DNA from: Symbiodinium sp. CCMP2592
Lineage: Eukaryota; Sar; Dinophyceae; Suessiales; Symbiodiniaceae
Reading direction: 5' to 3'
DNA length: 64,000 nt
Assembly (NCBI GenBank): GCA_905221615.1
Contig: CAJNDT010000001.1
Span: forward strand, 1,138,653-1,202,652
Position 1 is the first letter of the stretch. Each line of letters opens with the position of its first letter. The notes below the pieces were generated by a model. It saw only the letters and a program-made list of their open reading frames with translations, was not told the origin of the DNA and made no database searches. Made by a program: the position numbers and the translations under genes. Of the stretch, positions 8,020 to 51,513 are shown one piece after another.

Positions 8020-8065
8020 CCCTTTGCACCGAACCAGAACCACAAGGTTTAGATCCACAGGGCTT
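8020..8065 (+). repeat. Left terminal inverted repeat
   Basis: Starts CCCTTTGCACCGAACCAGAA and runs to the AGGGCTT at 8059-8065. It matches 51468-51513 in inverted orientation at 42 of 46 positions with no gaps. A (TA)n/(CA)n-rich stretch lies just outside, as at the right end. Confidence 0.75.
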
Positions 8066-8405
8066 TTTCGACAGAGTTGGCTTTTAAAGACGTTTACAGA
8101 CTTTTAAAAACTTTCAAATGCAAGAAAAAACATTCTAAAAACTTTTAGAAGACTTTAAAAGACTTTTAGAAACTTTTAGAAGACTTTTGCAAACTTTAAA
8201 AGACTTTTCAAAACTTTAAAAGGCTTTTAAAATATTTAAAAGACTTTTAAAAACATTAAAATACATTTAAAAGCTTTAAAAATACTTTAAAAGACTTTTA
8301 AACGCTTTTAAAAGCTTTTACAAACTTTAAAAAGAATTTGAAAGACTTTTAAAGACTTTAAACAACTTTTAAAAATTTTTAAAAACTTTAAAACAAAAAA
8401 AACTA
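8066..8405. repeat. AT-rich TTTTAAA subterminal repeat
   Basis: Irregular repeats of the type AAAAGACTTTTA / CTTTAAAA fill about 340 bp. There is no open frame of note. A similar TTTTAAATAC-rich stretch lies just inside the right inverted repeat. Confidence 0.8.
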
Positions 8406-8439
8406 ATGTTTTTTCCGAGAAGACGAGGATGAAGAAGAC

Positions 8440-9270
8440 CTGGCACAGGGTTTACAGTTTCAGGGTCTTTAGGGTTTGGGGTTAAGAAGGCAGAGTGCCA
8501 TAGTATTAGGGGTTTGAGGGTAATGAAAGGGTTAGGGTTAGAGTTTCAGGGTCTTTATTATATTTAGGGTTTGGGGTTAGAAGGCAGAGTGCCATAGTAT
8601 TAGGGGTTTGAGGGTAATGAAAGGGTTAGGGTTAGAGTTTCAGGGTCTTTATTATATTTAGGGTTTGGGGTTAGAAGGCAGAGTGCCATAGTATTAGGGT
8701 TTGAGGGTAATGAAAGGGTTAGGGTTAGAGTTTCAGGGTCTTTAGTATTTAGGGTTTGGGGTTAGAAGGCAGAGTGCCATAGTATTAGGGGTTTGAGGGT
8801 AATGAAAGGGTTAGGGTTAGAGTTTCAGGGTCTTTAGTATATTTAGGGTTTGGGGTTAGAAGGCAGAGTGCCATAGTATTAGGGGTTTGAGGGTAATGAA
8901 AGGGTTAGGGTTAGAGTTTCAGGGTCTTTAGTATTTAGGGTTTGGGGTTAGCAGGCAGAGTGCCATAGTGTTAGGGTTTGAGGGTAATGAAAGGGTTAGG
9001 GTTAGAGTTTCAGGGTCTTTAGTATATTTAGGGTTTGGGGTTAGAAGGCAGAGTGCCATAGTATTAGGGGTTTGAGGGTAATGAAAGGGTTAGGGTTAGA
9101 GTTTCAGGGTCTTTAGTATATTTAGGGTTTGGGGTTAGGAGGCAGAGTGCCATAGTGTTAGGGTTTGAGGGTAATGAAAGGGTTAGGGTTAGAGTTTCAG
9201 GGTCTTTAGTATTTAGGGTTTGGGGCTAGAAGGCAGAGTGCCATAGTTTTAGGGTTTGATAGTATTAGGG
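8440..9270 (+). repeat. Tandem array of nine 91-94 bp units, one 13-bp motif each
   Basis: Nine units have AAGGCAGAGTGCC or a one-base variant starting at 8487, 8581, 8675, 8766, 8860, 8952, 9045, 9139 and 9230. Each unit also carries TTTAGGGTTTGGGGTTAG, ATAGTATTAGGGGTTTGAGG and GGGTTAGGGTTAGAGTTTCA. Units differ by small indels (ATTATATTT, ATATTT or ATTT) and point changes. This is the only cluster where the motif runs in plus orientation. It sits just downstream of the 3' end of the minus-strand gene cluster. Confidence 0.92.
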
Positions 9271-9448
9271 ATGCACAAATCGCGTGAAGTGGCTACGAAC
9301 TGCTGGATGTTGCGCTTTTCTGCGTTGACCACACTGTCAAGCGAATCACGTGCAGGCGAAGCAGGGTACAGCTGGGTGACGCGACAACGTCTGGCACTCT
9401 GCCTTCCCAGCTGCTGGCACTCTGCCTTCCCGCCTCAAGATCCATTAA

Positions 9449-12400
9449 TTATTGCCACCCCAACTTTGCACGAAGCTGGTCGGTCAAAGGTATTGCTCCA
9501 GCATCAAGGTCAGGAAGTTCCCCCGGACCACCGAGACGGATGGCAACAAGTGAGAGGTGTTTCATCTGAAGGACAAACTGCCGTTGTTGTTCATCTTCGT
9601 CGTTCCAAACATAAACAAAATCACAAACGAGAGAAACGCGCGGCAACTCCAGCGGTTCTTCTCCTTCACCCACCTGATAACACTTCGGGAAGGGGCCTTC
9701 GTACCGTCGAAGAAGCCTGAGGCCTCCTGTAATGCGGGAGCCAATACGTGGCCAGTAACGCAGGTAGCGAACCATGATTTCCCAAGGCACGTCGTCATAA
9801 ACTTCATTCCATCTCTCAGCTGGTTTCCACTGGTCAGGCGCTTTGGCCAATTTTTCGCAAGCGGTTTTGATCAAGATTGGGGAGAGCTCGCCTCTGAAGA
9901 AACACTCTCCTCGTTCGATCGGGGCGAAATGCATTGCTCTGGACGGCTACTGTTCAGTCACAAGCACGCACGGCTTCAAACCACATGTGCTAGTTTGTGC
10001 GGCTTCCGGGTTGTGGCACTCGAAATGATTGTCCATGTGCTTGCACGTGACAAATTCCACATGTGTGAAAATGCGAACATGCTTTCGCAATCCGTCTTCC
10101 CCAAGCAGAAACACACAGTCTCTCGGACGCATTCCAATCTAGCAGGACCCGCTGCCATCAATGCAAGCACACAGACAGACACACAACTTTTCTTTGCAGC
10201 GCAGGATGAATCCTCTAGTTGTTGCCAGGCCTCCTGGTCGGGCCACAACAGGGCCTATGGTCAATGACGTGTTGTCTGGCCTGCGCTTCTGTCATCTTGG
10301 AAGCCACACGTCCCCAGTGATAGGGTACGAGGTGGCTCCACTCGCCTTCAATGCCAGACACACATGGGTTCATGTAATGTGACACAACACACAGCAGATC
10401 AGGCAACCACATCGAAGCTATAACAAATGTTCCGAATCTTTCCAAGAGACCGCCGTCTGTCACACGAACTCGGAGAAACCATTTTGCTTTGTCAGTGCCA
10501 CCAGGATTCGGGTCGTACTTCATCTCACCAGCGATCTTGGGACACTCCGGGCATTGAACAGGTGTCCATACCCCTTGGTAGTCAACACGGTTCGGCCGCC
10601 GCTGATGTTGGGGGCCACGGACTGCAACCTCCCGTGGCTCGAGTGCTGGGATAGGCACTGCAGGCACCTCCGGCATCTCAGCAGGAGGGGCTGGCACTCT
10701 GCCTTCCTCGGGCTCCACGTGATCATCAGGCTCTGGGACAGGGATTGCAGCAGGCACCTCCGGCATCTCAGCAGGAGGGGCTGGCACTCTGCCTTCCGCG
10801 GCCTCCACGTGATTATCAGGCTCCGGCTCCACCGGCACCTCAGCAGGAGGTGCTGGCACTCTGCCTTCTGCTCCCTCTTGACCACTTTCATCAGGAGGCG
10901 CGGGTTGCTTCCTGGGCAACATACGTGGGCGACAAATCTTTCTCTTGGCTTTCCGTTTGGCCTGTGGCTTGGCCTTTGCTTTGGTCTTTGCTTTGGCCTT
11001 GCCCTTTGCCTTGGCCTTTGCTTGCTGCGTCTTGATGGCCTGCCAGGTTTGATGCACCCTTTTGATTCTGCGTTTTCTGACTGCGTCTGAGACCATTTTA
11101 AATTCCTGTTTGTCCTCAGCAAGCAGGTCGTCAAGAACCAGCTCATCAACAAAGTCCCCCATGATAATGTCATCCTCATCCTCATCCTCTGTTGAATCTT
11201 TGGCTGTCGAATACATAGCCTCAATTTTGCGCATGAAATCCTCATCTTCCGGAAGGTGATGAGAAGCGATCAGGCTCATGAGCTTTGGACGGCGCATTCG
11301 TTGCAGCTCCTTTCGCTTTTTTTCGTCTACGTTTCCAGTCTGGGAGATCACATGCTCGGCGAGATTCTGGCAGTCTGCGAGAGTCCGACATGCTTGTGAC
11401 ATTTCCCTCAGTCGAGTCAGCAAAAACAAGCACAGCAAAACTTATATAAGTTTATTGTACTATTTACTGTATGGGTCGACAGTTGACAGAATCCTAAATG
11501 AAAACATGTCACTTGGGATGCTGCAACATATAGGATAGAAGTGACACTGAGCTTGTAGCACAACGACGGAGGCAAATGAAGCCATTCCAGAAGACTGCCT
11601 CTGTTTCGATGACTTCCCAATACTGGGGCTCATACAAATGAATCCAGCAGGCCTTGACGCTGGAACCATCCGGGCACTCTGCCTTCAAAACAAAATATAT
11701 CTCTCCTGTCGACTGGTCCTCATGCTGGACCACTGGCCACATGAGAGCAGCCCAGGTTTTTGCCCCAAGAGAGAGATAGCATGTCAAATCCAAGACATGG
11801 TTCAAGATCTTCAAAGGGGCTGCAAGGCTGCTAAACTTCCCAGCACGCAAGGGAACATGCTGAGATGCCAGTCTTGCATCATTGTAGTGAATTAGCCATG
11901 ACCACGCAGCTGATGCTCGTTCGAGTGTCTCTTCTGACAGGGTGTTCCATGTCTTGTCGCCGACAATCTCGGTATACTGTGACGGCAGCTTGTGGACACA
12001 TCCTCTGAAGCACAACTTTTGGCGCTTCCTGTCCACATTCCAAAACTCCCTTTCAAAATATTCCCGTTTGACTTTTGCCGGATGCCTGATTGAACGGCTT
12101 TCAAAGACGTTTGAATTCTCGATCACAGTTTGAATCGTGGAGTATGTTTGCTTGCGGGTTTTGTTCAACAAAGAATCATTACGAATCTTGTTGTGCACAT
12201 CTTCCACAATCTTGTTGTCTGGCAGCGTCTGCACCAGAACACTCAGCAGGTGGGTTGCAGGGCATGCTGGTACCGATATTGTTACAGTCCTTTGAGCTGG
12301 CACTCTGCCCTCTTGCCCGTCTAACAAAATGTCACCAACTCCGGCACCGTCATCTGCTTCTTCAGGCACAGAATCCTCCATCTCCCCGTCCTGCTCTGTG

Positions 12401-14384
12401 TCAACATCATCCACGACAATGTCTTCTGACCCCGGAGGCGCCACTTCATATCCCTGTGCCTCCAATGTGTCCAGAAAAAGTCTCGAAGGATGGCTGATTC
12501 CAACTTGCAGGTCTGTGAAGAGTTGCCGGGCATGAACACTTGGAGTGGACCGTGCCAATGTCGACTCCAACCTCAAGAGTGATGTGTGATGGCCCTTTGC
12601 CTTCAAAGCCGTGATCGTCCGAATTTCTGCATCAGGTGACAGCAATCCCGCATAGGCATCTGGTGGAAGTGAAAAAAGACTGCAAGTCCAGACCCTGTTC
12701 ATCAGCAAATGCAAGCTCAACATCATGATTTTTTCTGCGGGCTCGTGTAAATCAGTATCCAGATGCTCCTTCCACAACTCGGTCTTCTGCAGGTTGGAGA
12801 CAATCTGCAACAAATGTTTGTCTGCTTTCCAGGCATCATTCACTGTCATCAACTCGGCATAACCTCGACCATCCTGCGGCGATTTAACGTTTTTTACTTG
12901 TTTCCCATACCATGTCCACAACGGTTCGGTCACTTTGTACAATATCTTGGAGTGATCGAAAAGGTCTTCTGTCATGAGATAGTATGCCAACTTGAAGCCC
13001 CCCATGCTGGCTTTCAACAAGCTGAGTTCTTTCCGTGGATCAGTGGCACGACCAGCCTGTGACAGCTTTTGCAAATCACCCAGTGCATCTTCCTGCCTCT
13101 CACCATTGTCAGAGTCCGGCACTCTGCCTTCGGACTCTGGCACTCTGCCTTCGAAGAGCTCCTTGCCCGATTGTGTATTCGCCGAGTTGGAATACAGGCT
13201 GAGTCTTTCCCTTGAGCAAGGGCTGAAAGATTGATCTTCACCGAAATGATCAGCCAGCAGCATTTTGAGGACATGAAACTCATGAAGTTGCTCACAACAT
13301 AGCTGGTTCCAGCTGAACCATCTGGAGGATTTCACCAAGCTGCCCTTCTTCATGAAGGATTCGACATTTGCAAGCATATGTTCAATCTCATGCTCGTCAC
13401 CGGATAGCTGCCTGTCTAAGTCATAGGCAATCTTATCTCGAAAAGCGTCCCACAACAAGCTTCTGCTCGGTGATGTGCAGGAAACAAAACTCGCCAGCAT
13501 TTCCTTCTTCTGCTGGTAGAAACCACCACTTCCAAAGGGTTTATAATTCAGGGCAAAGATGTAAGAGGAGTGAAGTTGTGCTTTCAGGAAGAGTCCTTTG
13601 AGGCATCTCGACATGCTGTTTTTGAAATCTCGAATGGCCCTGTGAATCTTGTCACATTTCACATGAATCATGTTTTCACGCATAGCATAGGCCATGCCAG
13701 CAAGTCCGATGCTGCCCTGGTCAAGGCCCAAGACCAGCAGTGGAATGTTCAGCCACCACTTCTCTGACTCTGGCAAGACGGGGAGCACATTTGTGATCTC
13801 TCCATCCTCAGACATTGTCTTCAGAAAGGAGACATGAGGAAAAGCTGGTGGCACTCTGCCTTCTGGCACTCTGCCTTCTGGCACTCTGCCTTCAGCCGGA
13901 TCCGGATTGTCCCTCAACCACTGAAAACAGCGGTCAATGTCATTGTCTTCTTTTCCAACTTGGAAAACCACCCTGCTTTCATATCTTTTCACAGGCCTCT
14001 GCCCAAGAGAGGGGGCGATCTTGAAAGAGCCCAAATCCATTCGCCCTCTGTGCAAAATCCAGATTTGGTGACTGATCGCTTGAAGCTGCCTGAATGCAGC
14101 AATCCTTTCCAGCTTCTTTCGCTTTGATATGTGAAGAAGCAGGTCGTCGTCAAACCGGTCTTGTGGAGAAACTTGTCCAGTCTTCATCACTTGCATGGGT
14201 GCAAACACTGCAGCAGAAATCTCATTCGCCCAAGCCACTGTCACAAGACAATCGCTGGTGCTGTGAGTAGACCCATCGGCGATGAAGTTGATTTGTCGAC
14301 AGTGCTGCATAGCAGTGATAGCTCTCTCCTGGTACAACCGATTGGTTCGAAGCTGCCACTCGTCACAGCTGGACTCAGGCACAC
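9449..14384 (-). CDS. Spliced gene, unknown; first exon weakly RNase-H/transposase-like
   Basis: Exon 1 (14384-11513) encodes about 957 residues. It opens after CCAGCTCAG with no ATG, so an upstream exon probably exists. Exon 2 (11406-10215) joins it in frame through a 106-bp intron (11512-11407, GT...AG; ...HPK|EMSQ...). A further open exon (about 9936-9449) ends with TAA, but I could not fix its exact splice. Exon 1 has FIADGST (about residue 33), three EGRVP repeats (164-178), LGLDQGS (219) and CDKIHR (243-248). The spacing of D36, D221 and the HR box recalls RNase-H-fold transposases, but that is inference only. Exon 2 has an acidic stretch, a Lys/Ala-rich linker and Pro-rich EGRVPAPPAE repeats, then a Cys-containing C-terminal part. 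The gene lies outside the 14.7-kb duplication, so it is single-copy here. Confidence 0.6.
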
Positions 14385-14539
14385 CTGAGCTGGCAAGTCA
14401 AAGAGCGATTCGTTCACTGCAATAAATAGTTGAGATACAAGTACAACTTGGACTTCAACACCATGCGCAAGCAACACCATTCTTCGGCCTCCCATGGAAG
14501 AGTCCGGGTCACCCGGGCTTCGTCATTTTCGGGAGGGGC

Positions 14540-14667
14540 CACCTGGCACGTTAGCGCATGTGTCCAGATGTCATGGTCGGCTGCCCGCCGACCGTTGGCC
14601 CCAACCCCCCCCTAGACTGCACGACCCTGGGGCCCTTTCCCTGGCTCCACACCCGGCCAACAGTGTG
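14540..14667. repeat. Two-hairpin structured element, copy 1
   Basis: Hairpin 1 at 14540-14570: CACCTGG pairs with CCAGATG (one mismatch), loop core GTTAGCGCAT, followed by TCAT. A TTGGCCCCAA box follows near 14595. Hairpin 2 at 14648-14667: CACACC against AGTGTG around loop CGGCCAAC. A GGCCTCCC box lies upstream near 14485. The strand of any transcript is unknown. Confidence 0.65.
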
Positions 14668-15014
14668 TCGGTAGCTGCCAAATTGGCGGGCATGCAGCTG
14701 CCGCGTGGTAGAGCAACACACACCAAACCCCATTCTGAACATGTTGGCACTCTGCCTTCGACAAACACAACCGAACAGCAAGCCAAGCAAGGTTCTCTGC
14801 TCAATAACACAACCATGTCCCAAGAACGGACGGCCTCCCTTCTTTGTTCGGAACCTGGAAGTCTGGCCCGGACAACACGATCCGAGGTCGCAGAAAATCC
14901 AGCTAGGTAAGGCAACCTTGAGGAGGTTCGACTGACACTCTAATTACTGTACTTCTGCGCGATATTTGGCCTCCCATGTTGCAAAGGGGGACACTCGGGT
15001 GCCGAGCTCGGACC

Positions 15015-15144
15015 CAGCCAGCACGTTAGCCCATGTGTCTGGCTGTCATCACCAGGTGTCCGCTCTGGTGGTTGGCCCCAAGTCATCGTTCGGTTCCGTC
15101 TTCCACGGTCCCCCAAAGCGACCCCATGCCCGGCCATCGGCATG
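15015..15144. repeat. Two-hairpin structured element, copy 2
   Basis: Hairpin 1 at 15015-15045: CAGCCAG pairs perfectly with CTGGCTG, inner CAC/GTG, one bulged base, loop GTTAGCCCAT, then TCAT. A TTGGCCCCAAG box lies near 15073. Hairpin 2 at 15125-15144: CATGCC pairs with GGCATG around CGGCCATC. Hairpin 2 and its downstream sequence are duplicated at 15210-15229. Confidence 0.7.
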
Positions 15145-15209
15145 CAAGCGCGGCTGGTGAATCAAAACTGGACACACCGCGACTTGTTGGTAAGGTCCGT
15201 GTGACAACG

Positions 15210-15229
15210 CATGCCCGGCCATCGGCATG
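15210..15229. repeat. Extra hairpin-2 module
   Basis: A second perfect copy of CATGCC-CGGCCATC-GGCATG. It lies in an 85-bp direct duplication that includes the following GGTGAATCAAAACTGGACAC sequence. Confidence 0.65.
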
Positions 15230-15286
15230 CAAGCGCGGCTGGTGAATCAAAACTGGACACACCGCGACTTGTTGGTAAGGTTGGTG

Positions 15287-15345
15287 TGACAAAGAATTCA
15301 CTATAATCTTAAACAACTGGCTAACAAAACAACATTCTACTATGA
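15287..15345. repeat. Direct repeat shared with 17543-17600
   Basis: GTGACAAAGAATTCACTA and the following AATCTTAAACAACTGG and AACAAAACAACATTCTACT recur at 17543-17600 with few changes. It lies between structured modules at the first site and at the 3' end of the next gene at the second, so it may be a shared gene-end sequence. Confidence 0.65.
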
Positions 15346-15467
15346 ATGAGACGGAGGAACACACCAGCTCAACAACACAGACATGTCCCAAGAACGGCCT
15401 CCCTTCTTTGTCCGGTATTGCTTCCGGTGACTTGCATGACTGCTTCGATGTCACCAGGTCACAGCCC

Positions 15468-15590
15468 CAGCCGGCGCATTAGCCCATGTGCCCGGCTGTC
15501 ATCTACACCCTGCCCCTGGGATAGGTTGGCCTCAAGGCTGTGACACAGGCAAACCGAACGCCTCACACATGGCCAATGGTGTGGGGAGCA
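15468..15590. repeat. Two-hairpin structured element, copy 3
   Basis: Hairpin 1 at 15468-15498: CAGCCGG pairs with CCGGCTG, inner CGCA/TGTG with a G-T pair, loop TTAGCCCA, then TCAT. A TTGGCCTCAAG box lies near 15524. A weaker hairpin 2 (CACACATGGCC...GGTGTG) lies near 15568. Confidence 0.65.
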
Positions 15591-16230
15591 ACCCTGGTGG
15601 GGCAGGGGTTTACTCCTTAGGTAAGGCAACACCGAAGAGGTGCGACTGGCACTCTGCCTCGGCACTCTGCCTCTGTCGTCGATCCAAGAGAACAGAAAGC
15701 ATGTGCTCAGCAGAAAGAGATATAGCCTAATCATGGGTTAGCGGCCTCCCCCATTTGCTGAAATCCACCCCACTCGGCCAAGGTGGGTCGCCATGCTCAC
15801 AGGGACTGAATTAAGATGACAGCGCTGTGCCGGATCCCGTCGCAGCTGTTGCTCAGCAGGCCATTGGCACACCTGCGATGTAACAGATCCCGGAGACTTG
15901 GTTTGCTTCGGCGTAAACATCGCCCGCAACGCGCCGATAGAAACAAACCAGGCACAGGCCGAAATCACCCTGTGAGTAGCAGGCTCTAGGCACAGCTGGC
16001 GGCTGGGGTAGTGGAAACTTACAGCAGGCTGCTACACTGCCAATACAGGCCATGCCAAACGATCAACGATAGACCTGATCCCAGGGCCACTTGCGCGCAA
16101 AAGTGAGCACAGGCAAGAACTGAAGAAGGCACTATCTCACCCTTCTCTTTACAACACAACTCAAGCGGCCTCCCTTTTAGGATCTCACCGGGGGGGGAAG
16201 GAAACACCCGCCCCCCATTTAAGCCACCCC

Positions 16231-16300
16231 CAGCAGGCGCATTAGCGCATCGCCCTGCTGTCATACCCCTCGGGCTGTAGGGGAGTTGGCCCCAAGGGTG
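16231..16300. repeat. Two-hairpin structured element, copy 4 (hairpin 1 and box)
   Basis: Hairpin 1 at 16231-16260: CAGCAGG pairs with CCTGCTG, loop core ATTAGCGCAT, then TCAT. TTGGCCCCAAG follows near 16288, and GGCCTCCC lies upstream near 16166. No hairpin 2 recognised. Confidence 0.6.
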
Positions 16301-16439
16301 GCCGCCACGAGGCCACGCAGGCGTCAGTGGCCAAGCTTTCAGCTCCGGATGGATCGCTGCCCCCAACACGGCAAACAAGATGGAACCTGGCAGGTCTCTA
16401 GGGCCCCCTCGGCCAGCCCGCTGCTCAGGTTTAGGTCGG

Positions 16440-16580
16440 GCAAGCGAATCGACAAGGACGTTTATGATCAAAAGCAAGCACAGCAAACCACTAAACCCTA
16501 CTAAAAAACCCTTAGAAGTTTTACTGGCACGCTGCCTTTGGCACTCTGCCTTTCATAAATTTGATCACAACCTGACACTT
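16440..16580. repeat. Direct repeat, first copy (second at 17012-17150)
   Basis: CAAGCGAATCGACAAGG, CACTAAACCCTACTAAA, AGAAGTTTTACTGGCAC and a doublet of GGCACTCTGCCTTT followed by CATAAAT recur 572 bp downstream. This is a local tandem duplication of the structured-module region that has since diverged. Confidence 0.8.
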
Positions 16581-16727
16581 AATGACTACTCACTCGATTC
16601 GGCCTTTCATGTTGCGCACTCGGTCGATCAACAGTTCAAGAGCCTCCCCTGCTGCCACCGAGTGGGTCATCATCTCGCACTGACTACTGGCTAGCCAGAG
16701 CGTGCAGAGACATAAAGGGGGGGCTCC

Positions 16728-16845
16728 CAGCAGGCACGTTAGCCCATGTGTCCTGCTGTCATAGGGATCTGGTCAGCAGATCCCCGTTGGCCTCAAGAGC
16801 CCGAAAATCCCAAACAGCGGCCCGCCACACCCGGCGAACGGTGTG
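16728..16845. repeat. Two-hairpin structured element, copy 5
   Basis: Hairpin 1 at 16728-16758: CAGCAGG/CCTGCTG with inner CAC/GTG, loop GTTAGCCCAT, then TCAT. A TTGGCCTCAAG box lies near 16788. Hairpin 2 at 16826-16845: CACACC/GGTGTG around CGGCGAAC. Confidence 0.7.
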
Positions 16846-40766: not shown

Positions 40767-43700
40767 TCAATCCTGAAAGCCATCTGCAGTTACTCCCCAA
40801 TCAGGAACGAAGTTCGCAGTGGTCTGGTAAACATCCACATACTCTTCATCTTCCGATGGCGGGACATCATCACCCATCTGGCTCACCGCGTCTAGGTCTT
40901 CCCCCCTTGCCTTCTGTTCCAGCTTCTTCTGACAATACACAAGCATGGTGTAATTGTAAGCATCCCAAATCTTGCAGGACAAAGGCACAATCCAGCTCTG
41001 CAGGTCTTTGGGCTTGAATTTTTCCTTTGAGATGACATCTTCCGTCGTATAAACCTCAACGAGTGTCTTGGAGGCCTCAAACCAGTGCCAGTATGTCAGA
41101 TGTTTTCCCTTGACTTTATCACGGCCATGTTTTGGCGGAGTGACATTGAACATGCACTGGAGAATCTGCTCAATGACCGCCACCCCAGTTTCCCTCTGAA
41201 GCCACAGGTGCCAGTCCCCAGGCTCAGAATTGTTTGGAATCTCCTTCACGTTCTGGTCACACAACAGATCCCAGACAACCGCAGTTTTCGAGCCCTTCGA
41301 CCGAAAGTGATTCCACGCCATGTCCTTTCTATCCACTGGCACGTTATTCTTCTCGCATTCTCGGACTGTGATCTCATGGACAGCCATGAGCAGCTGGGTC
41401 ATGACAGTCGTAGTCTTGCTGTTGAACTTCCGATCGTTGTGCTGGGGGTTGAACGGCTGATCTTGTGGCACCGGTCTCGCCATACGTGCCCGATTGGCGA
41501 GGCGGCCCACCTTCGAAGTCGTCACCGCCCTGTGACTGCATGGCAGCATTCCCCGCAACGCTCTGAGAGTTTTCTCCTCCTCAGTCTCTGGCTGCAAAAG
41601 CTCGGCTGGAACCTTGATCTTGTTTTGACCCCTTGGCACTCTGCCTTGGGGGTCCGTAATTCCGAGGTCCTCCTCCGCTTCCAAGAAAGGCTTCACCTCT
41701 CCAGGCACTGGCGCAGTCGCACTCTTGGGGTTTGCGGCAGCCTTCGGGCTCGGGTCCACATTCATAGCCTCCAGCTCGTTCATGACCTTGGCGACGACGG
41801 CATCGTGCTCGCTCTCAGTCACCCGGGTCTCCGGTACAGAAGGCATCGGCTCATCTTGCTCCTCTCGGAGATGGTCCCCTAGTACCATTGTTGCTTGGCT
41901 GTCACCCTCATCCTCGTCCAAGCGATCCGGGTCGGGCTCCGCCTCCATCTCAAGCGGCGGTTGCTCATCCTGCACCATAACCTCGACAAATTCCATTTCA
42001 TCGTCCGACGGATCTTGCACAGGCTCCTCCTCTTCCACCACAACATCAACCAAAGTGTCCTCCTCCTCGGCTTCCACCTCCTCCTTGGGGTCCAACCATA
42101 TTCCTCCCTTCTCCGTCTTCATATGCCGCAAAAAAGCAGGATGAGCTTCGCCTGGACGGCCCTTTCCAACAAGGTGAGTAGGGATATTGGGACGGCCCTT
42201 TCCAACAAGTGGCACTAGGGCTGGACGGCCCTTTCCAACAAGGTCAGTAGGGATATTGTCCTCCACTGGCACTCTGCCTTTGTGGCCCTTTCCGGCAGGC
42301 TTGCCCTTTTGGGCGAAGTAAGCTGCTTTCCCGATCGGGACGGCGTCGCCCTTGCTTTTCAAGCCCTGGGCCTTTGCCACCCAGGCCGGCTCAGCGCGTC
42401 GGCCCTGCGGAACGAAATTGGAGCCTCTTGCCGTATCGTCAGCATACTCGGCAAGTTCCTTGGCGAAATCCTGCTCGTCCATCCTTTGCTTTTCCGTCAT
42501 TTCAGCAGGAGCACTTGCCGACATAAACTGTGGCTTGGAACCAACAGGCACAGGCTGTCCGTCGCCGAATTTCCTTTTGGCAGGAGGCTGCTTTGCCGGC
42601 GGGGGACCCATCGGCTCTGGCACTCTGCCTTGCTTTGCCGGCGGGGGACCCATCGGCTCTGGCACTCTTGGCGGGGGATTCGGCTCGGGATCTGGCACTC
42701 TGCCTTGCTTTGCCGGCGGGGGACCCATCGGCTCTGGCACTCTGCCTTGCTTTGCCGGCGGGGGACCCATCGGCTCTGGCACTCTTGGCCGGGAATTCGG
42801 CTCGGGATTCGGCTCATCGTCATGCCAGGCATCGTATTCGTCCTGGATGACGGGCATTCTGGCCGTTCTGCCCCAGCGATGTTGCTGCTGCTGGTGGCCA
42901 GGAGGAGGATGAGCTGGTTGCACCGGGCCCCTGCCAGGAGGAGGATGATCTGGTTGCACCGGCCCCCTGCCAGGAGGAGGATGATCTGGTTGCACCCTGC
43001 CAGGAGGAAGTGGTTCCCACTCCTGCTGCCAAGGGTGATCAGGCAGAGGCCCAGCATTTCGCAGCGGTCTTACTGGCACCTGCCACGGAGCAGGAGGCCT
43101 CGCCTTTTGCTGAGGCGGTTTATGCAAAGGCGGGCGGGCCCCCCTGGGAGGAGTCCCATCAGGATGATGTATTGCTTTGCCTTTGCCTGGCACTCTGCCT
43201 TCTACTGGCACTCCTCCTTTCATCCCTTTGGCTTTTGCAGTCGCAGATCCAGGGGGATCCCAGGGAGGTGTCGAATCCCAACACTGAGGTGTTGGCGGAG
43301 GATTCGGCGGCGCAAGTGCCTGCGGCTGCATTCTGCTCATTACTGCCCTTGTTGCCTCGACCCTCATTTGCTGGCATTGTTGCATCAAGTCCAGACCCTG
43401 CTGGAACTTTGCTTCCAGATTCTTGCACAACTTGTACAGATCGGACACCATTTCACCAACTCTCCACTTATTCGGTCCATAGTCCGTTTTGAATTTTTCG
43501 CCAGCAGCAAGCATCTTCTTCCAGACCTGTGACGCGTACTCGGAGACGGTGGCGCTGTGGTTTGAGGGAATTTGCCACAAGCTCAGAAAGCAGTTGAGGT
43601 GACCCTTCATCTTTTTTGCGGGAACATCATTAATTGGTAGGCAACCGGAGCAGTCCACCAAGGCAAACGTCAAATTCTCCGCCCCCACTGGCACTCTGCC

Positions 43701-44582
43701 TTTGTGGTCCGGCACTCTGCCTCCCATGACAGTAATGTTATTCTCATGGAGGTCCCCCAGAAGACTCCCTTCCAGCCTAAGGGTATGCATTTGTAGCTTC
43801 AAGACAAACTTGAACAGCTTGAAGAGGATCAGCATGGTCTCTTTCTCTGGGAACTTGCTTGGGTCGGAAAACCTCTGGTTGAGGAAGGCTCCCACAGTCG
43901 TCCCGTTGCCTTTGGCTTCTGTGACGATCACCGATTTTCTCATCCGCGGTGCCACTACGCCCGAGGCATGGGTGACCAAGGTTTTCAAGTCGAAAGCGAG
44001 CGGGACAGGAAACGATTGCCAGTGGGTTGTGAACATTCGAGATTGCAGAAAATGCCAGTCAAATTGGTTTCCACACTCTTTTTCATCCTTTGCGAGTGGC
44101 CTGTGCAGCTTGACACAGAGGTGCACCTGATCTGTCCGATTATTGAAGTCCAGAGCATCTTCAGGAATAGAATCCACCAGTCTCAGGGCCTCTGCTGCGA
44201 CTTCCGAGGCTTTGAGGACTTCGGCACTCTGCCTTTCAGACCGAGGAATCCTGAGCTCGCGCAGAAGCTTCAGAATGTCGATGACCCACGGCTGTGGGAT
44301 CCTCGCAATCATTGAGTCCCGATTCATTCCATGACCGACGTATTTCCATTCACACTTGCACTGTTTGAATCCTTTCCCGCCTCTCACGCGGAATTGCAGG
44401 CGGACCTCACCGAAGGCTGTGACATAGTAGTCTAGAGGTTTTTTGATCGGCCAGGGATAATTCGGACCCATCTGCAAGGATCCATCCAGCTGTTGTTCGT
44501 AAAACTCACAGGTGATGTTGCCGGCTCGCACATTGGCCCAAAACGTCTGACCAAGCGGACTCGTATGCACAGGCGCTGTCAT
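40767..44582 (-). CDS. Kinase-like Pro-rich protein (copy B, intact)
   Basis: About 1,271 residues from ATG 44582 (MTAPVHTSPLG); the frame is open 22 codons further up but has no earlier ATG. Residues about 240-315 look like a protein-kinase-type core. VTEAKGNGTTVGAFL resembles a hinge, GDLHENNITV (276-285) matches the catalytic loop of APH/ABC1/RIO-type kinases (GDLHxxN), and VDCSG (309-313) replaces the DFG-type metal-binding motif. Two GRVP motifs fill the loop between these strands. A P-loop-like lysine is not obvious. The middle is Pro-rich with GRVPEPMGPPPAKQ repeats and KGRP repeats, followed by an acidic stretch. The last about 300 residues form a compact, Trp-rich helical domain of unknown family. 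Kinase activity is inference. Confidence 0.6.
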   Translation of the reverse strand: MTAPVHTSPLGQTFWANVRAGNITCEFYEQQLDGSLQMGPNYPWPIKKPLDYYVTAFGEVRLQFRVRGGKGFKQCKCEWKYVGHGMNRDSMIARIPQPWVIDILKLLRELRIPRSERQSAEVLKASEVAAEALRLVDSIPEDALDFNNRTDQVHLCVKLHRPLAKDEKECGNQFDWHFLQSRMFTTHWQSFPVPLAFDLKTLVTHASGVVAPRMRKSVIVTEAKGNGTTVGAFLNQRFSDPSKFPEKETMLILFKLFKFVLKLQMHTLRLEGSLLGDLHENNITVMGGRVPDHKGRVPVGAENLTFALVDCSGCLPINDVPAKKMKGHLNCFLSLWQIPSNHSATVSEYASQVWKKMLAAGEKFKTDYGPNKWRVGEMVSDLYKLCKNLEAKFQQGLDLMQQCQQMRVEATRAVMSRMQPQALAPPNPPPTPQCWDSTPPWDPPGSATAKAKGMKGGVPVEGRVPGKGKAIHHPDGTPPRGARPPLHKPPQQKARPPAPWQVPVRPLRNAGPLPDHPWQQEWEPLPPGRVQPDHPPPGRGPVQPDHPPPGRGPVQPAHPPPGHQQQQHRWGRTARMPVIQDEYDAWHDDEPNPEPNSRPRVPEPMGPPPAKQGRVPEPMGPPPAKQGRVPDPEPNPPPRVPEPMGPPPAKQGRVPEPMGPPPAKQPPAKRKFGDGQPVPVGSKPQFMSASAPAEMTEKQRMDEQDFAKELAEYADDTARGSNFVPQGRRAEPAWVAKAQGLKSKGDAVPIGKAAYFAQKGKPAGKGHKGRVPVEDNIPTDLVGKGRPALVPLVGKGRPNIPTHLVGKGRPGEAHPAFLRHMKTEKGGIWLDPKEEVEAEEEDTLVDVVVEEEEPVQDPSDDEMEFVEVMVQDEQPPLEMEAEPDPDRLDEDEGDSQATMVLGDHLREEQDEPMPSVPETRVTESEHDAVVAKVMNELEAMNVDPSPKAAANPKSATAPVPGEVKPFLEAEEDLGITDPQGRVPRGQNKIKVPAELLQPETEEEKTLRALRGMLPCSHRAVTTSKVGRLANRARMARPVPQDQPFNPQHNDRKFNSKTTTVMTQLLMAVHEITVRECEKNNVPVDRKDMAWNHFRSKGSKTAVVWDLLCDQNVKEIPNNSEPGDWHLWLQRETGVAVIEQILQCMFNVTPPKHGRDKVKGKHLTYWHWFEASKTLVEVYTTEDVISKEKFKPKDLQSWIVPLSCKIWDAYNYTMLVYCQKKLEQKARGEDLDAVSQMGDDVPPSEDEEYVDVYQTTANFVPDWGVTADGFQD

Positions 44583-45708
44583 CCTGCGGCACTCTGCCTT
44601 GTCCAGCCAGATTGCGGCACTCTGCCTTGTCCAGCCAGATGCAGGCACTCAGCCTTCTCAGTCCAGCTCAAGGCACTCTGCAAAGAATGGCGAGGCGGCA
44701 CTCTGCCTTATAATGTCGAAATGATATACTACCTCTGACGTCAATGTGTTGTTAGATTATAGTTACTAGTATTTGACACAATTTAAATTATATCAACTAT
44801 ATTTTGATATTATGCTCACATTGACATTAAATATCATGCATATGCCATCATTCAAGGACCACGACTCACTTCACTTTGAGCAACTCCATCGACAGAATAA
44901 TCATGACATGACACTTTTATTGAAGCAGCAGCTACACGGAGTTTAACTTAATTGAGGGGCCAGACAGACTCAGCATGATCGGGAGCTTAGCACACGAATG
45001 AAACCTAATTCAAGGGCTGTGTTGATATTCAAATCTGCCATATGCCATGATTCAAGGACCACTGCAGCAACATTTGAAACCTGAGCAACCATCATAAGCC
45101 ATAGGCAAAACAATCATGACATGACACTTCAGAAGCCCGAGAATGCTAAGTTGAATTTGGCAACGCAGAAGCAGCATGATCGGAAGCTAAGAACAGCACC
45201 GATGACCAGCAATCCTGGGGTCTGGAGACGCCAGCTGACGGCCAAACCTTGCATGGTCACTTTCATTCATACTCAGACTCTCTCAGCACAGTCGCAAACC
45301 CAACACATCCAACAGAACTCAGAAGTGCTCGGTCTTCAGAAGTCTCAGCACTCACAGTTTTGCTTCTGCAGCAAGCAATGCTCTTCTGGAGGCACTACTC
45401 TGACAGCGACGAGGCCTTCTCCAAAACACTCACAACTTTGATCATGACTTGTTGGTTTGCCTGCACCACAAACAAATAACCTGTTGCTGTGCGAAAGGCA
45501 GGCAGAAGTCCACATGAGCAGACATCGGCACTGAAAAACTTGAGAAGAGTCAGTCGACGAAGCCTGACCCACCTGGCACTCTGCCTTCGTCACTGTCCTG
45601 GCCTGTAAATTAAATTGATGTTGGAATTTGCCACTCACTGAATGGTCCAATTCTGGGCACTCTGCCTTTGGCACTCTGCCTTTTAAGGCACTCTGCCCTT
45701 CTTTTTTC
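44583..45708. other. Leader and intergenic region (copy B of 29801-30926)
   Basis: Five motif copies precede the ATG, as in copy A. The rest mirrors the AT-rich region with the ATTCAAGGACCAC direct repeat. No gene recognised. Confidence 0.5.
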
Positions 45709-46905
45709 TCACGATTCGCCGTCCATCATCAGGATGTTTTCTTGCACAATAGCAGGCTCGAACTCGTTGTAATCCTCCTCATCGTCCACACGCTCTTCAT
45801 TCCAGGCCTCCGGATCATCTTCGTCGTAACCGAATCTCACCATGGTCGTGGTCCACAAGAGTTGCTCACCTTCGCGGACTTCCCCTTCCCACAGCGTCAA
45901 ATTCTCAGCCCCCCGCGCCCAGCCCTGATGACAGGCATAGAGCCATCTTCTCTCCGTCATCACTTGCATGCCTGCACCGGTGAGCTCCAGCTTCAGGTAA
46001 AGTGGCGGTGCCTGTTTATCGATCCTGAACTGAGATCATGTTGAAGTTGCTACTTGATTCTAGTCAGTTTTAATTATTAAGATCCGTAGATATAAGATAA
46101 TAAATAAATGTAGCGTCGAAGCATGGCTTGCATCTGAGTGGCCATCTAATGCTGTCTGGCCACCATTGGTAGCGTTCAAGGGCCAACTGGGCCGTGGGGC
46201 GCAAGGACCAGTGCGGATGGTTTTTGGTCTCCGAGGAACCGGGTTGCGCCCAAGCGCTGATGCCGTTCCCTTTCAAGAAGTCCCAGCGAATCTGCAGGGA
46301 GACATCCAGTCAAGCAGTAAGAAACAGTCACAATCAACACATGCTATGATTATCATCAAACACACTGCCCACTGCCTGCCAAACGTCCTCCACGCACATG
46401 AAGTATGTGTGAAGGGTCTGGTTGGGGTCTTGCATCGGGGTCTTGCCCTTCTTTCCCTTGCCCTTGCCAAGATCGCCCTTGCTCGCGCTGGCACTCTGCC
46501 CTGTGGCACTCTGCCCTGTGGCAGTCTGCCCTGGCTTTCCTGCTCCCTTCCCGACCTGACTTGTTCTTTGGGCTTGAGCGTTGTTCAATGAGTTGGTCAG
46601 CTGCCAATTTGAAAACTCTTGCAGCTGAGTGCGGTGGCGGCCTGCCCCTGTGTTTTCCATGGCGGATAATGACTTGCCCACTGCACAATTGGGACAAGGG
46701 CACTCTGCCTTACCTGAACCAGACTGCTGCAACAGCACAAGTAGGCAAAAATGAGCACTCATTACAATCACCGGAGACTGACTGTTAAAGTCACATTTGC
46801 ACCCACTGAGTCGCCGGCTGGATTCACTCATCCAATCGCCCCAGCGGCCCTGATCACCATGTCGGCACAACCGACAAAGGAACTGACAGTTTCCACAACC
46901 GAGAC
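45709..46905 (-). CDS. Multi-exon Cys-rich protein gene (copy B)
   Basis: Copy of 30927-32125. It keeps CGNCQFLCRLCRH and has CPCPNC, where copy A reads CPCPNF, so the zinc-ribbon-like set is complete only here. A probable intron ends CTGTTGCAG just before QSGSGKAECPCPNC, and another ends CCCTGCAG before IRWDFLKGNG. It ends with an acidic tail at 45709. Confidence 0.45.
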
Positions 46906-47175
46906 GGGCATGATCTCACTTTCTTTTTAAGCTCAGTCAGTAACACCGGCAGCCAGGTTTAAACGCACGAATTAAGCTGTGACTGCCAGCTGAAAGTGGG
47001 AATGTAACTATTAGCCTTTTCAAGGTAAGGACTGTGTTTCACTTCCAGCCAGCAGTCCAGTGTCGGGTCCAGGACTCTCTGGCTGGGCCAGTGTCGGGAC
47101 ACAAATTTCGACGGCTCAGAATCATTCATTGGAGCAGAACTGTTTGACCATGGACTTCGGGTTCAGTGTCGATGA

Positions 47176-48474
47176 TCAACTGTACGTGTGCAGCTCATCC
47201 TGCATTTCCAGCAGTGCTTCAATCATGTACTCACGATCCCGGAATGGAGCATAGTAGGCTCGGTGGTTGATCCACCTGACAATGGCTTGTTCCATGGTCA
47301 TCGAGGCAAAGGCCATGACTAGGACACAATAAGCAGCACAGGTCCTGTTAATGCCACCGTAGCAATGGACAAGCACACGAATTGGCCTCTTCTTGCCTCC
47401 ACGCTTCCGACCACCTCCCTGAAGCTTCATCGCCTCCAACAAAGCAAGAGCATTACCGAGCTCACCAGGGAATGTCTCATCGGCCACCTTCAAGGCACTC
47501 TGCCTTCCATCGGCACTCTGCCTTCCTTCAGCGGCTCTTCCGAACAGGCTGCCCATGTCACTTCCCTTGCTGAAGCCCTTGTCATAGGAGCAGCCATAGC
47601 CAAATGAGCCCTTCGTCGATGCCTTCTGGCTTTGCATGTGATTGGAAACCTGACAGGGGCCGCTGTAGCCCTTGCTGATTGTCTTGCCCTTGCCCCTGCC
47701 GCCATTGGCCTTGCCCATCATTTTGCCCTTGATGGCACTCTGCCTTTGACTCTGGCTGAACTCCTCTGCTGAGCGCTGCCAGCACATCATAATCTTTCTG
47801 AAATCTGAAATGAGGCGGCGCCAAATGGTCTTGAACTCATGACTTCTTTGTTCAGCATCAAAGTCATTGGCATGTGTTTGATCCCAGCCACCATACCGAA
47901 GATGTGCAGTGCCAAACGGTCCACAATTCGCCAAATACTGATACCAGTCCCATGGCTCAAAATTCCGAGGTCTGTCATCTGCATTCATAGAGATGACAAT
48001 GTCAGGCTTGACCCGGAGCTGGTCATATCGGATCGGGCAACCAATACTGCCAACAAACAGTTGCCACTGGGGATGGTCGTAAATCAAAACATCATCCATG
48101 GGCCACGTCTCGACATCATGCTGGCATGGCCGAGGTGGCGGGATCGACCCAGGCAGCACATCTGTCTGGCCGGTCCATGCTTTGTACAACTTCATATCCA
48201 TATCTCCGAAATCTGAGATGGCCTCAACTGCCAATTTGATTCGTTGATCCAATTGTGCAGCCCTTTGGATCTTTCGGAGCCCGGTGGTATAGTCGGCAGC
48301 TGATCTGCCACAGTGTAAACAATTCCACCGAAGTTGTTGCACGGCTTCGTTCCAGTAATCACTGCCAAGGTCAATGTGATTGGCCTGATTCTGATGGTCA
48401 GCAGCAGAAGTCTGGCACTCTGCCTCGGAACTCCCTGAGCACCTTGAAACGGTCGTCGGCATCACTGCTTTCAT
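47176..48474 (-). CDS. Dual-specificity-phosphatase-like protein
   Basis: ATG-started, 432 residues. LFVGSIGCPIRYDQLRVKPD (from about residue 139) fits the first strands of a dual-specificity phosphatase domain. VLVHCYGGINRTCAAY near residue 370 is the C-x5-R phosphate-binding loop, followed by a typical helix and an RxYY segment. The two halves are split by a Gly/Lys-rich low-complexity insert of about 115 residues that carries motif copies in the RQSA/DGRQSA frame. The catalytic Cys and Arg are present. The general-acid Asp is uncertain because of the insert. Substrate unknown: protein or RNA-cap phosphatase are both possible. The first codons (MKAVMPTT) lie in the 858-bp repeat described next. 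Confidence 0.65.
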   Translation of the reverse strand: MKAVMPTTVSRCSGSSEAECQTSAADHQNQANHIDLGSDYWNEAVQQLRWNCLHCGRSAADYTTGLRKIQRAAQLDQRIKLAVEAISDFGDMDMKLYKAWTGQTDVLPGSIPPPRPCQHDVETWPMDDVLIYDHPQWQLFVGSIGCPIRYDQLRVKPDIVISMNADDRPRNFEPWDWYQYLANCGPFGTAHLRYGGWDQTHANDFDAEQRSHEFKTIWRRLISDFRKIMMCWQRSAEEFSQSQRQSAIKGKMMGKANGGRGKGKTISKGYSGPCQVSNHMQSQKASTKGSFGYGCSYDKGFSKGSDMGSLFGRAAEGRQSADGRQSALKVADETFPGELGNALALLEAMKLQGGGRKRGGKKRPIRVLVHCYGGINRTCAAYCVLVMAFASMTMEQAIVRWINHRAYYAPFRDREYMIEALLEMQDELHTYS

Positions 48475-49311
48475 CGAGCACCCAATTGTCCAACGATTAA
48501 AACATTAACAGTGACTAATGCATCACTATACAGTACATTAACCAATGATATGTAACATTGTGTTACTACTGTTACATCAGTATGAATGAATCACTTGATT
48601 ATCTGGCCGGCAGATGTCGATCATGTATGGTGCAAGGCAACTCACTGACAGACTATGCAGGCAGGCAGGCAGGCAGCCAGCCTCGGAGACAGCAGGGTCC
48701 TGAGGACGTCACTGCCACCCGGCACTGTGTAGTCAGCATGTCATGCTGGGTAACCTTTTGGAATCCAAGTTGCGCACACTACCGCTGAGGTCTCCAATCG
48801 GACAGTCTAGCTCTGCTGGCTAGATCGTCGAATTCAAAATCCTCTAAGCACACGCAAACCCGGCACTCTGCCTTCCCCAACATCCGTAATGCGGTCTCGG
48901 AGGCTGTACAAACACGATGAATCACTGATTCATCATTGACGACAGAGCTTCGTCTCGCACGTCATTGTAATATAAAATTCCTGGCACTCTGCCTTCACTG
49001 TAATCCTGCATAAATCTCGGAAAGAGTACGTGCAGGATCATATCATTGATATGCCAGTCTACTTGCAAGACATGCCCACGCTCTTCAGAATTCAGAAAGA
49101 ACCACAATGTCGAAAAGGACTCCTCTAGCAGCGCGTCGAAATAAATCACATAATCATCGTAGTCACTGTCCATGATCGAGGCCACAGTGCTTGCACGCTC
49201 ATCGGCAACCAGAATCCAGTCCGAGTCCAGAGACTCACTGTCACTGCACGACATCGACGACATCTGCCGGCTTGCAGGGGGGCCTACTACGACTTAGACT
49301 AGAGACAGAGC
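48454..49311. repeat. 858-bp direct duplication, unit 1
   Basis: Starts GGTCGTCGGCATCACTGC. It is repeated from 49312 with the same order of blocks: a leader with GTAACATTNTGTTACTACTG, a (GGCA)n stretch, a motif copy, then a small minus-strand gene. Non-coding parts are about 95 percent identical by eye. Confidence 0.85.
48922..49263 (-). CDS. Small acidic protein, 113 residues (paralogue 1)
   Basis: Starts ATG with MSSMSCSDSESLDSDW. A Ser/Asp-rich N-terminus is followed by a hydrophobic-aromatic core (EESFSTLWFFLNSEERGHVL) and SEGRVPGILYYND near the end, where the 13-bp motif is read in the GRVP frame. No family recognised. No signal peptide or membrane segment. Its paralogue at 49776 has the same length and layout but many substitutions. 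Confidence 0.6.
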   Translation of the reverse strand: MSSMSCSDSESLDSDWILVADERASTVASIMDSDYDDYVIYFDALLEESFSTLWFFLNSEERGHVLQVDWHINDMILHVLFPRFMQDYSEGRVPGILYYNDVRDEALSSMMNQ

Positions 49312-50165
49312 AGGTCGTCGGCATCACTGCTTTCATCGAGCACACAATTGTCCAACGATTAAAACATTAACAGTGACTAATGCATCACTATATAGTACAT
49401 TAATCAATGATATGTAACATTTTGTTACTACTGTTACATCAGTATGCATGAATCGCTTGATTCTCTGGCCGGCAGATGTCGATCATGTATGGTGCAAGTC
49501 AACTCACTGACAGACTATGCAGGCAGGCAGCCAGCCTCGGAGACAGCAGGGTCCTGAGGACATCACTGCCACCCGGCACTGTGTAGTCAGCATGTCATGC
49601 TGGGTAACCGTTTTGAATCCAAGTTGCGCACACTACCGCTGAGGTCTCAAATCGGACAGTCTAGCTCTGCTGGCTAGATCGTCGAATTCAAAATCCCCTA
49701 AACACACGCAAACCCGGCACTCTGCCTTCCCCAAGATCCGTGATACTGTCGCGGAGGCTGTACAAACACGACAAATCATTGATTCAGTGACGACAGCCAT
49801 TCGTCTGTCACATTGAAATATAAAATTCCTGGCACTCTGCCTTGCCTAAAATCCCGCAAAAGTCTCGGAAACAGTACGAACATGATCTGTTCATTGATAT
49901 GGAAGGCTGCTCGAAAGACTTGCCCACGCTCTTTAGAATCCAGAAACATCCACAATGTCGAAAAGGACTCCTCTAGCATCTCGTCGAACGGAATCACATA
50001 ATCATCGTCGTCAGCACTGTCCGCGACCGAGCCCGCAGTACTTGCACCCTCATCGTCAACCAGAACCCAGTCCGAGCCCACAGACTCACTGTCACTCCAC
50101 GACATCGACGACATCTGCCGGCTTGCAGGGGGGCCTACTACGACTTAGACTTGAGACAGAGCAGC
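49312..50165. repeat. 858-bp direct duplication, unit 2
   Basis: Second unit of the duplication, slightly shorter because of fewer GGCA repeats. It ends just beyond the start of the second small gene. Confidence 0.85.
49776..50114 (-). CDS. Small acidic protein, 112 residues (paralogue 2)
   Basis: Starts ATG with MSSMSWSDSESVGSDW. Same architecture as paralogue 1: an acidic N-terminus, EESFSTLWMFLDSKERGQVF, and RQGRVPGILYFN near the C-terminus. Roughly a third of residues differ, while the surrounding non-coding sequence is nearly identical. Function unknown. Confidence 0.6.
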   Translation of the reverse strand: MSSMSWSDSESVGSDWVLVDDEGASTAGSVADSADDDDYVIPFDEMLEESFSTLWMFLDSKERGQVFRAAFHINEQIMFVLFPRLLRDFRQGRVPGILYFNVTDEWLSSLNQ

Positions 50166-50672
50166 TGTAACACGACTATAGTAGATTACGCAGGGCAACA
50201 GCGAGCACAACTGCTGCAGCGGCAAGTTGCGATACATGACACGCTCACTGACTATGCAAGGCAGCTTGTCCTCTGCGATGGCAGCATGTCCTCAGGATCC
50301 TCGTCATGAGCCTCGGTGCCAGGACTGTACCATAATAATGGAAGTAGCTGAAGCAAGCTGATGCTGAGATCCCAGCAGTTGGCATCCACTTCTCGATGGG
50401 CTGGAAGCCGATGAAGACCGATGGGAGAGAAGGAAATGGAAGAGAAGGCGTTCACTAGGCTTGGATTCAAACCGAACACTTAGACCTGGCCAACGGTGTG
50501 GGGAGCAACCCCGATGGGGCAGGGACTTAAGTAAGGCAACCTCGAGAGGCTCGACTGGCACTCTGCCTCTGTCGATCCAAGTCGCAAGGCTCCCTAACTA
50601 ACGTGACAAGCATGGATGGCCTCCCCTCCTGGTTGGGAGAAAAATAAAAAAGCCACAACCACTGGACCACCC

Positions 50673-50784
50673 CACCCGGCACTTTAGCCCATGTGCCCGG
50701 GTGTCATATGCCACTGCCCTGGCACGTTGGCCCCAAGGCGGTCCAGGTACCATCGACAACACCTGACACCCGGCCAACGGTGTC
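50673..50784. repeat. Two-hairpin structured element, copy 6
   Basis: Hairpin 1 at 50673-50703: CACCCGG pairs with CCGGGTG, inner CAC/GTG, loop TTTAGCCCAT, then TCAT. TTGGCCCCAAG near 50728. Hairpin 2 at 50765-50784: GACACC/GGTGTC around CGGCCAAC, all six pairs intact. Confidence 0.75.
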
Positions 50785-50937
50785 CACGAACCGAGATGGG
50801 CAGTCGATCCGTGTGGGTAAGGTGGCACTCTGCCTCTGTCGATCCAAGTCGCAAGGCTCCCTAACTAACGTGACAAGCATGGATGGCCTCCCCTTCCTGG
50901 TTGGGAAGCAAATCAAGCCGCAACCACTGGACCACCC

Positions 50938-51051
50938 CACCCGGCACTTTAGCCCATGTGCCCGGGTGTCATATGCCACTGCCCTGGCACGTTGGCCCCA
51001 AGGCGGTCCAGGTACCATCGACTCAGCACCTGACACCCGGCCAACGGTGTC
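50938..51051. repeat. Two-hairpin structured element, copy 7
   Basis: Tandem copy of the previous element: hairpin 1 at 50938-50968, box near 50993, hairpin 2 at 51032-51051, with identical stems. Confidence 0.75.
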
Positions 51052-51165
51052 CACGAACCGAGATGGGCAGTCGATCCGTGTGGGTAAGGGCAAGGTCTCA
51101 AGGCAAGTCAACATGTCACTACGGCCTCCCTTCTTTGTTCAATCACAACCCAAAACTATTTAAAA

Positions 51166-51430
51166 AGATTAAATTTTAAAAATTATTAACTTCAACAACA
51201 AATAAACAACAATTTTGTAGACATACAGCAGCAGGAAACCAGGTAGAACAACAGGAAGCCAATTGACTCACTCAGAAACAAAATTCACAAACATGTATTT
51301 TTTTACACCAAAAATAAAATAAAAGAATTTTAACAACTGTAAAACACAAAAAAACCTATTTAAAAAACTTTTAAATACAAAACAATACTTTTAAATACAA
51401 AAAAACACTTTTAAACACAAATAAAGCCAA
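51166..51430. repeat. AT-rich TTTTAAATAC subterminal region
   Basis: A-rich sequence with repeated CTTTTAAATACAAAA. Compositionally it matches 8066-8405 at the other end, just inside the inverted repeat. Confidence 0.75.
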
Positions 51431-51467
51431 CCACATACAAAAATGAGATTTTGGGTTCCTTTCATAT

Positions 51468-51513
51468 AAGCCTTGTTGATCTAAACCCTGTGGTTCTGGT
51501 TCGGCGCAAAGGG
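51468..51513 (-). repeat. Right terminal inverted repeat
   Basis: Reverse complement of 8020-8065 with four mismatches in 46 bp. It is followed outward by TTAAGGAATATATATATATAT. Confidence 0.75.

Follow-up and report, generated by a model that had tools for sequence, protein, structure and literature searches.

The window studied here is a stretch of 64,000 nucleotides from the dinoflagellate Symbiodinium sp. CCMP2592 (GenBank assembly GCA_905221615.1, contig CAJNDT010000001.1, positions 1,138,653 to 1,202,652). It contains a series of open reading frames (ORFs) enclosed between inverted repeats (Table 1). A preliminary description, made from the letters of the window, had proposed that the enclosed block is a giant transposable element of 43 kb. 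The nature of the block is supported by ends that occur in high copy number with a sharp outer boundary, by their inverted pairing, by 5-bp target site duplications (TSDs), by uninterrupted paralogous sites for one copy and by an intact ORF of the DDE transposase type; its length proved to be overestimated. We conclude with high confidence that the locus holds one copy of an autonomous cut-and-paste DNA transposon of a dinoflagellate, about 28.7 kb long, with a hAT-like DDE transposase, 53-bp terminal inverted repeats (TIRs), a 5-bp TSD and approximately ten cargo ORFs.

Ends, copies and target sites

The 46-bp sequence at 8020-8065 matches the reverse complement of 51468-51513 at 42 of 46 bases, as the preliminary description had stated, and the runner-up places in the window reach 26/46. 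The outer boundary of the repeat was set by comparison with seven other left-end copies. The full TIR extends 7 bp further outward on each side, to 53 bp with 46 matching, and the element termini are TC...GA. The TTTTAAA-rich subterminal sequence reported inward of both ends corresponds to two arrays of 20-bp units.

The genome (1,098,105,373 bases in 5383 contigs) was searched for further copies. The left end with its inner flank gave 656 candidates and the right end 646; the 40 scored in each case were 95-100% and 98-100% identical, respectively. The seven other left-end copies have about 1.2-1.6 kb of interior in common (97.7-99.0% identity), and their outer flanks differ, except for two copies that share one. 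In the four copies of which long stretches were fetched, the similarity also continues across the transposase ORF.

A 27-bp core of the end has 601 exact occurrences in the genome (control, 0), and pairing was scored on the first 100 of these listed places. Seventy of them form 35 inverted pairs, with spans of 20-60 kb (21 pairs), 7-20 kb (4 pairs) or 4-7 kb (10 pairs). Spans above 28.7 kb are expected because of overlaps at assembly gaps and nested insertions. In the copy on contig C5251 (about 1193300), for instance, the element breaks off at its base 17496 and the right end lies 60 kb from the left end; the interruption by other sequence may be a nested insertion or a misjoin. Among the transposase places scored on contigs within the listed range, 15 of 16 lie inside an end pair, and the sixteenth (C56) has one listed end. 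Thus, the ends are not scattered singly without link to the gene set, which the preliminary description had named as an outcome that would speak against a transposon.

A 5-bp duplication, in which the five bases before TC equal the five after GGA, was found in all seven copies read at both ends: ATATA in the window (ambiguous in its TA microsatellite), ATTTA in C3668, TTATA in C4801, CCATA in C3347, ATATA in C5251, CTATA in C169 and TAAAC in a short 5-kb copy on C335. The commonest bases in 30 right flanks were A (22), T (22), A (15), T (18), A (22), then G (19), several flanks being duplicates and some not fitting the pattern. When the flanks of the C5251 copy were fused with a single ATATA, they matched 38 dispersed paralogues at 75-82% across the junction; in the C5251 copy itself, the flanks are split. 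This copy therefore sits in an older repeat whose other copies, paralogous sites within the same genome, are without the insertion.

These observations also bear on the explanation that the inverted repeats belong to a short dispersed repeat, two copies of which lie by chance on either side of an ordinary cluster of genes in one direction. The end sequence is indeed present in high copy number, and of the 100 core places listed, 30 lie outside any listed pair. Chance flanking does not account for the extension of similarity far inward in the other copies, through the transposase ORF in four of them, nor for the inverted pairing of the ends, the location of transposase places inside pairs or the regular 5-bp duplications, and we regard it as most improbable.

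Transposase, length and cargo

The 962-residue ORF contains a conserved acidic triad and is intact in other copies; its frame is open in all 52 scored places, which were the best-matching ones. Foldseek places its predicted structure with Hermes-type transposases, and one of its homologues is a named protein of Polarella glacialis. This ORF is presumably the active transposase. An ORF upstream resembles the N-terminal part of a fused homologue, and the two are probably exons of one transposase, separated by an intron. Modules within that stretch (14900-16760) and near the right end (50468-51007) are 75-87% alike. Recent or current activity is testable, given the high copy number and the open frames.

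The 43-kb span resulted from a stretch of 14.7 kb that is present twice, around a gap of 100 N. The two versions are 99.0% identical, and the duplicate ends and starts exactly at the gap, which argues that two overlapping contig ends were laid side by side. Removing the repeat yields an element of 28,726 bp. A large copy on C335, read at its middle only (1 kb), is collinear there and measures 28,887 bp end to end. In each of four other copies fetched at length, sequence overlaps or is lost at a gap of 100 N, and the element position differs between copies: C3347 overlaps at about 10734-18939 and C5251 at about 14195-15594, and sequence is missing at about 9964-22625 in C3668 and about 8607-22164 in C4801. 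A genuine 43-kb arrangement with a tandem duplication would account for the differences between the two 14.7-kb versions, which amount to 89 positions plus 7 insertions or deletions (indels). However, such an arrangement is very unlikely, since the repeat coincides exactly with the gap, other copies overlap or lose sequence at gaps of their own, the C335 copy has the shorter length, and only 22 of the 89 substitutions are transitions. Differences between the overlap copies (17969-24105 against 32742 onward) are spaced by 90-130 bp in 46% of the intervals, against 14% expected. This spacing of about 100 bp and the scarcity of transitions look technical rather than biological. As the interior coincides with assembly gaps in five large copies read at length, an element of this kind is easily missed or mis-sized.

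The same ends also delimit shorter elements. The short C335 copy (C335:1538850-1544050) is a 5.1-kb element whose termini are 78-89% similar to those of the large one and which shares its 10-bp minisatellite region, with no ORF longer than 209 residues. Such elements of about 5 kb, to which the ten shortest end pairs correspond in size, are probably moved by the same transposase.

Several observations weigh against the assignment proposed here. The 5-bp duplication and the TC...GA termini are not those of a classical hAT element, for which the duplication is 8 bp. The Foldseek E-values are weak (0.1 and above), and the transposase ORF has neither a Pfam or NCBIfam transposase match nor a profile match to PDB sequences. 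The 52 places at which its frame was scored were chosen from 832 candidates, and the share of intact copies is therefore biased upward. Uninterrupted sites were demonstrated for one copy only, within one strain, and no movement was observed. A 100-N gap is present in all four longer fetched copies, and the 30 unpaired core places have no listed partner.

On the other side, TIRs on dispersed copies, a TSD of fixed length, empty sites for one copy and a DDE ORF with an acidic triad place the element among the class II TIR transposons. In the mechanism we propose, a transposase with a hAT-like fold, probably encoded by the two exons, would recognize the TIRs and the subterminal arrays, pair the ends and excise the element. 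Insertion would take place at A/T-rich sites and leave the 5-bp duplication, with the other ORFs traveling as cargo.

Besides the transposase, the element contains approximately ten ORFs, presumed to be genes and mostly on one strand; the longest interior ORFs are on the minus strand, in agreement with the same-strand cluster described earlier. Those scanned are mostly without a Pfam match. The functions first suggested for them fared less well: the phosphatase and RING labels, for which alone there were hints, correspond to matches below threshold, and searches gave no support for a kinase (the 1245-residue ORF) or, with Pfam and PDB sequences, for a methyltransferase (the 385-residue ORF). 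The second copy of the 1245-residue ORF, at 40767-44648, comprises 1293 residues from a GTG.

A size of about 29 kb, many ORFs and terminal inverted repeats would also suit an endogenous DNA virus or a Polinton/Maverick-type element. The ORFs scanned, which do not include every small one, matched no capsid, polymerase B or packaging ATPase in Pfam; viral contigs yielded no relative of P0002, which is homologous to the 1245-residue ORF; and the transposase fold is hAT-like. A viral or Polinton origin thus appears highly improbable.

Table 1. Features of the element and their positions in the window
Feature	Position	Strand	Remarks
Left TSD copy, 5 bp, ATATA	8008..8012		Ambiguous here, within a TA microsatellite; other copies clearer
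Left TIR, 53 bp	8013..8065	+	Sequence match and other copies
Left subterminal 20-bp array, TTTTAAA-rich	8081..8393
Left subterminal 94-bp array	8468..9259	+	8.5 units; contains the 11-mer motif 9 times without mismatch, on the + strand and facing inward
Region with the 116 exact occurrences of GGCAGAGTGCC, the core of AAGGCAGAGTGCCA	8489..50834		None elsewhere in the window
ORF, 165 aa	9452..9946	-	No Pfam match
ORF, 408 aa	10218..11441	-	GRVP encoded by 3 motif copies; no Pfam match
DDE transposase-like ORF, 962 aa	11512..14397	-	D41, D226, E732; Hermes/hAT-like fold
Probable intron, 3.2 kb, separating the two parts of the transposase	14398..17607	-	Repeated modules related to 50.5-51.0 kb
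ORF, 354 aa, probable upstream exon	17608..18669	-	Matches residues 1-341 of a fused homologue of the transposase
End of first contig	17969..32641		Same sequence as 32742-47423
ORF, 385 aa, conserved family	19217..20371	-	16 homologues; methyltransferase-like by eye only; no Pfam or PDB-sequence support
ORF, 365 aa	20674..21768	-	GRVP encoded by 4 motif copies; no Pfam match
ORF with sub-threshold RING-finger match	23160..23483	-	zf-RING_2, 21.4 bits (cutoff, 27.3)
ORF, 344 aa	23764..24795	-	3 GRVP; no Pfam match
ORF, 1245 aa	25989..29723	-	10 homologues, one of them a protein named as from Symbiodinium microadriaticum
Scaffold gap of 100 N, with overlapping contig ends on its two sides	32642..32741
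Start of second contig	32742..47423		Same sequence as 17969-32641
ORF, 432 aa	47176..48474	-	Dual-specificity phosphatase match at residues 366-398, 17-19 bits, below cutoffs
Tandem duplicate pair, 89.6%	48451..50164	-	Short ORF in each: 48925-49293, 49779-50144
Right subterminal 267-bp tandem	50556..51089	-	Two units, motif at the edge of each, pointing inward
Right subterminal 20-bp array, TTTTAAA-containing	51362..51425
Right TIR, 53 bp	51468..51520	-	Sequence match and other copies
Right TSD copy, ATATA	51521..51525

Outside the element, the window contains four members of a palindromic family resembling miniature inverted-repeat transposable elements (about 110 bp, 109-114), which matches itself in both orientations (2116-2228, 3917-4030, 6840-6948 and 52468-52580); the preliminary description had likewise placed all four outside. 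Long microsatellites of the GTA/GTG type are found at 53697-54530, about 2 kb beyond the right end. ORFs on the + strand at 59700-63400, one of them lysine-rich, may represent a gene outside the element, and they lack the word described below.

A word repeated in one orientation

A short motif had been described as confined to the interior. We found 116 exact copies of GGCAGAGTGCC in the window, where shuffled sequences give 0.12, all of them inside the element and none in the 20,492 bp outside. Counted per element, there are 77 copies of this 11-mer (minus strand, 67; plus strand, 10) and 49 of the wider 14-mer, AAGGCAGAGTGCCA. The word has sharp edges, and the 67 exact copies on the gene strand compare with 8 that carry one mismatch. 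Outside the left array, 67 of 68 copies have the same orientation; at both ends the word points inward, in the nine copies of the left 94-bp array and in the last copies at the right end. Its density is 2.49 per kb in eight long ORFs and 2.41 per kb elsewhere inside the element. In these ORFs it is read as GRVP 26 times, in the QSA frame five times and in the AEC frame twice, and close pairs of words are spaced by multiples of three in 8/8 cases within ORFs as against 2/11 for the others.

The 14-mer occurs at 12,746 places in the genome (control, 3). All 74 word places on contig C1 (4.0 Mb) are inside this element, and none was found in the element flanks examined. At 49 per element, the genomic total corresponds to about 260 full-length equivalents, or 7.5 Mb, a rough estimate given the gaps and overlaps. 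The same 11-mer also forms clusters, with as many as 10 copies in 8 kb, in the bacterial Oscillospiraceae metagenome-assembled genome Tb.RUG.97; these are apparently unrelated.

Between copies of the element, 10 of 2609 word bases differ, compared with 837 of 94,692 others (P 0.004, with comparisons that are not independent and a single reference). An initial count gave 6/2565 and 841/94,728, with a bias that arose because only the reference had served to define the word. Homologues at about 80-87% identity have most word positions in common, with some gain and loss. In three transposase homologues at 42-47% identity (P0015, P0016 and P0017), repeated GVVP or GVLP stands where GRVP stands here, hinting that other lineages may have other words; more distant homologues showed no such repeated word.

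On our hypothesis, the 14-bp word is most likely a recognition tag for a protein encoded by the element; it would have arisen as a binding tag in the inward-pointing subterminal repeats and extended from there into the interior, always in the same orientation. The word might instead be a passive by-product of tandem slippage and gene conversion within the element, without function. Tandem clusters of 13-17 bp and an indel of one 14-bp motif unit between copies do show slippage, and the one short element read retains only two copies, both near its left end. What a passive origin explains poorly is the rarity of one-mismatch copies, the single orientation, the even scatter in and out of ORFs, the lower divergence of word bases (with the reservations given above) and the different words of distant homologues. 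We take it seriously as an alternative and rate it as less likely than not.

The two copies left in the short element suggest that internal words are not needed for being moved, so that a role of the word, if any, would concern the genes, their RNA or the protection of the long element. We tentatively put forward a broader proposal, to which we give somewhat less than even weight: that these elements form a new group of giant dinoflagellate DDE transposons, hAT-like in fold only, and that every lineage of the group labels the full length of its element, genes as well, with a one-orientation word of its own (AAGGCAGAGTGCCA here) as a self-identity code read by an element protein. Such a code would serve end pairing, protection or escape from silencing, and the word would change the encoded proteins, to which it would contribute GRVP, KAEC or RQSA peptides in frame.

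Relation to known systems

Among eukaryotes, autonomous DNA transposons of large size that carry many cargo genes are uncommon, and the genomes of this host group are poorly understood. For algae in which transformation is difficult, a working transposase would be a candidate tool. We know of no explanation for a one-orientation word that recurs throughout a single element, in coding and non-coding sequence alike, and this poses a sharp, testable question. No element of this kind, in size, cargo and word, turned up in the open-licence literature searched.

The ends of hAT elements are short and of the CAG type, whereas those described here are 53 bp and start with TC. The transposase is Hermes-like in fold, but the element is 28.7 kb long with about ten cargo ORFs, and Pfam found no hATC domain or BED finger in the main ORF, the upstream ORF or the homologues scanned. 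A 5-bp duplication is described for the hAT5 group in the available part of PMC12730594.

With Polintons/Mavericks the element has its large size, several ORFs and terminal inverted repeats in common; the available part of PMC6431247 gives them typically 15-25 kb, up to 40 kb, and several ORFs. It differs from them in that no DNA polymerase B, capsid, protease or packaging ATPase was detected among the ORFs scanned, in that the nearest fold is hAT rather than retroviral integrase, and in its 5-bp duplication. The enlarged EnSpm of red algae, Teratorn and Starships are likewise giant eukaryotic transposons according to the same part of PMC6431247, which has no mention of a one-orientation word repeated along an element and in which the term hAT occurs 0 times. 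Their transposases or recombinases are of other types.

Introners are small and form introns, in contrast to a block of ORFs carried between terminal repeats. They too are high-copy insertions in dinoflagellate genomes, as described in the available part of PMC11453091. The likeness of the word to the DNA uptake sequences of Neisseria is an analogy only, since the word here is in one orientation and, as far as tested, confined to one transposon. The Neisseria sequences are short words that recur about once or twice per kb, also in genes, with other dialects in relatives; we know of no uptake system for the word described here. Judged by sequence, the size and cargo of the element, and above all its word, appear new among these systems.

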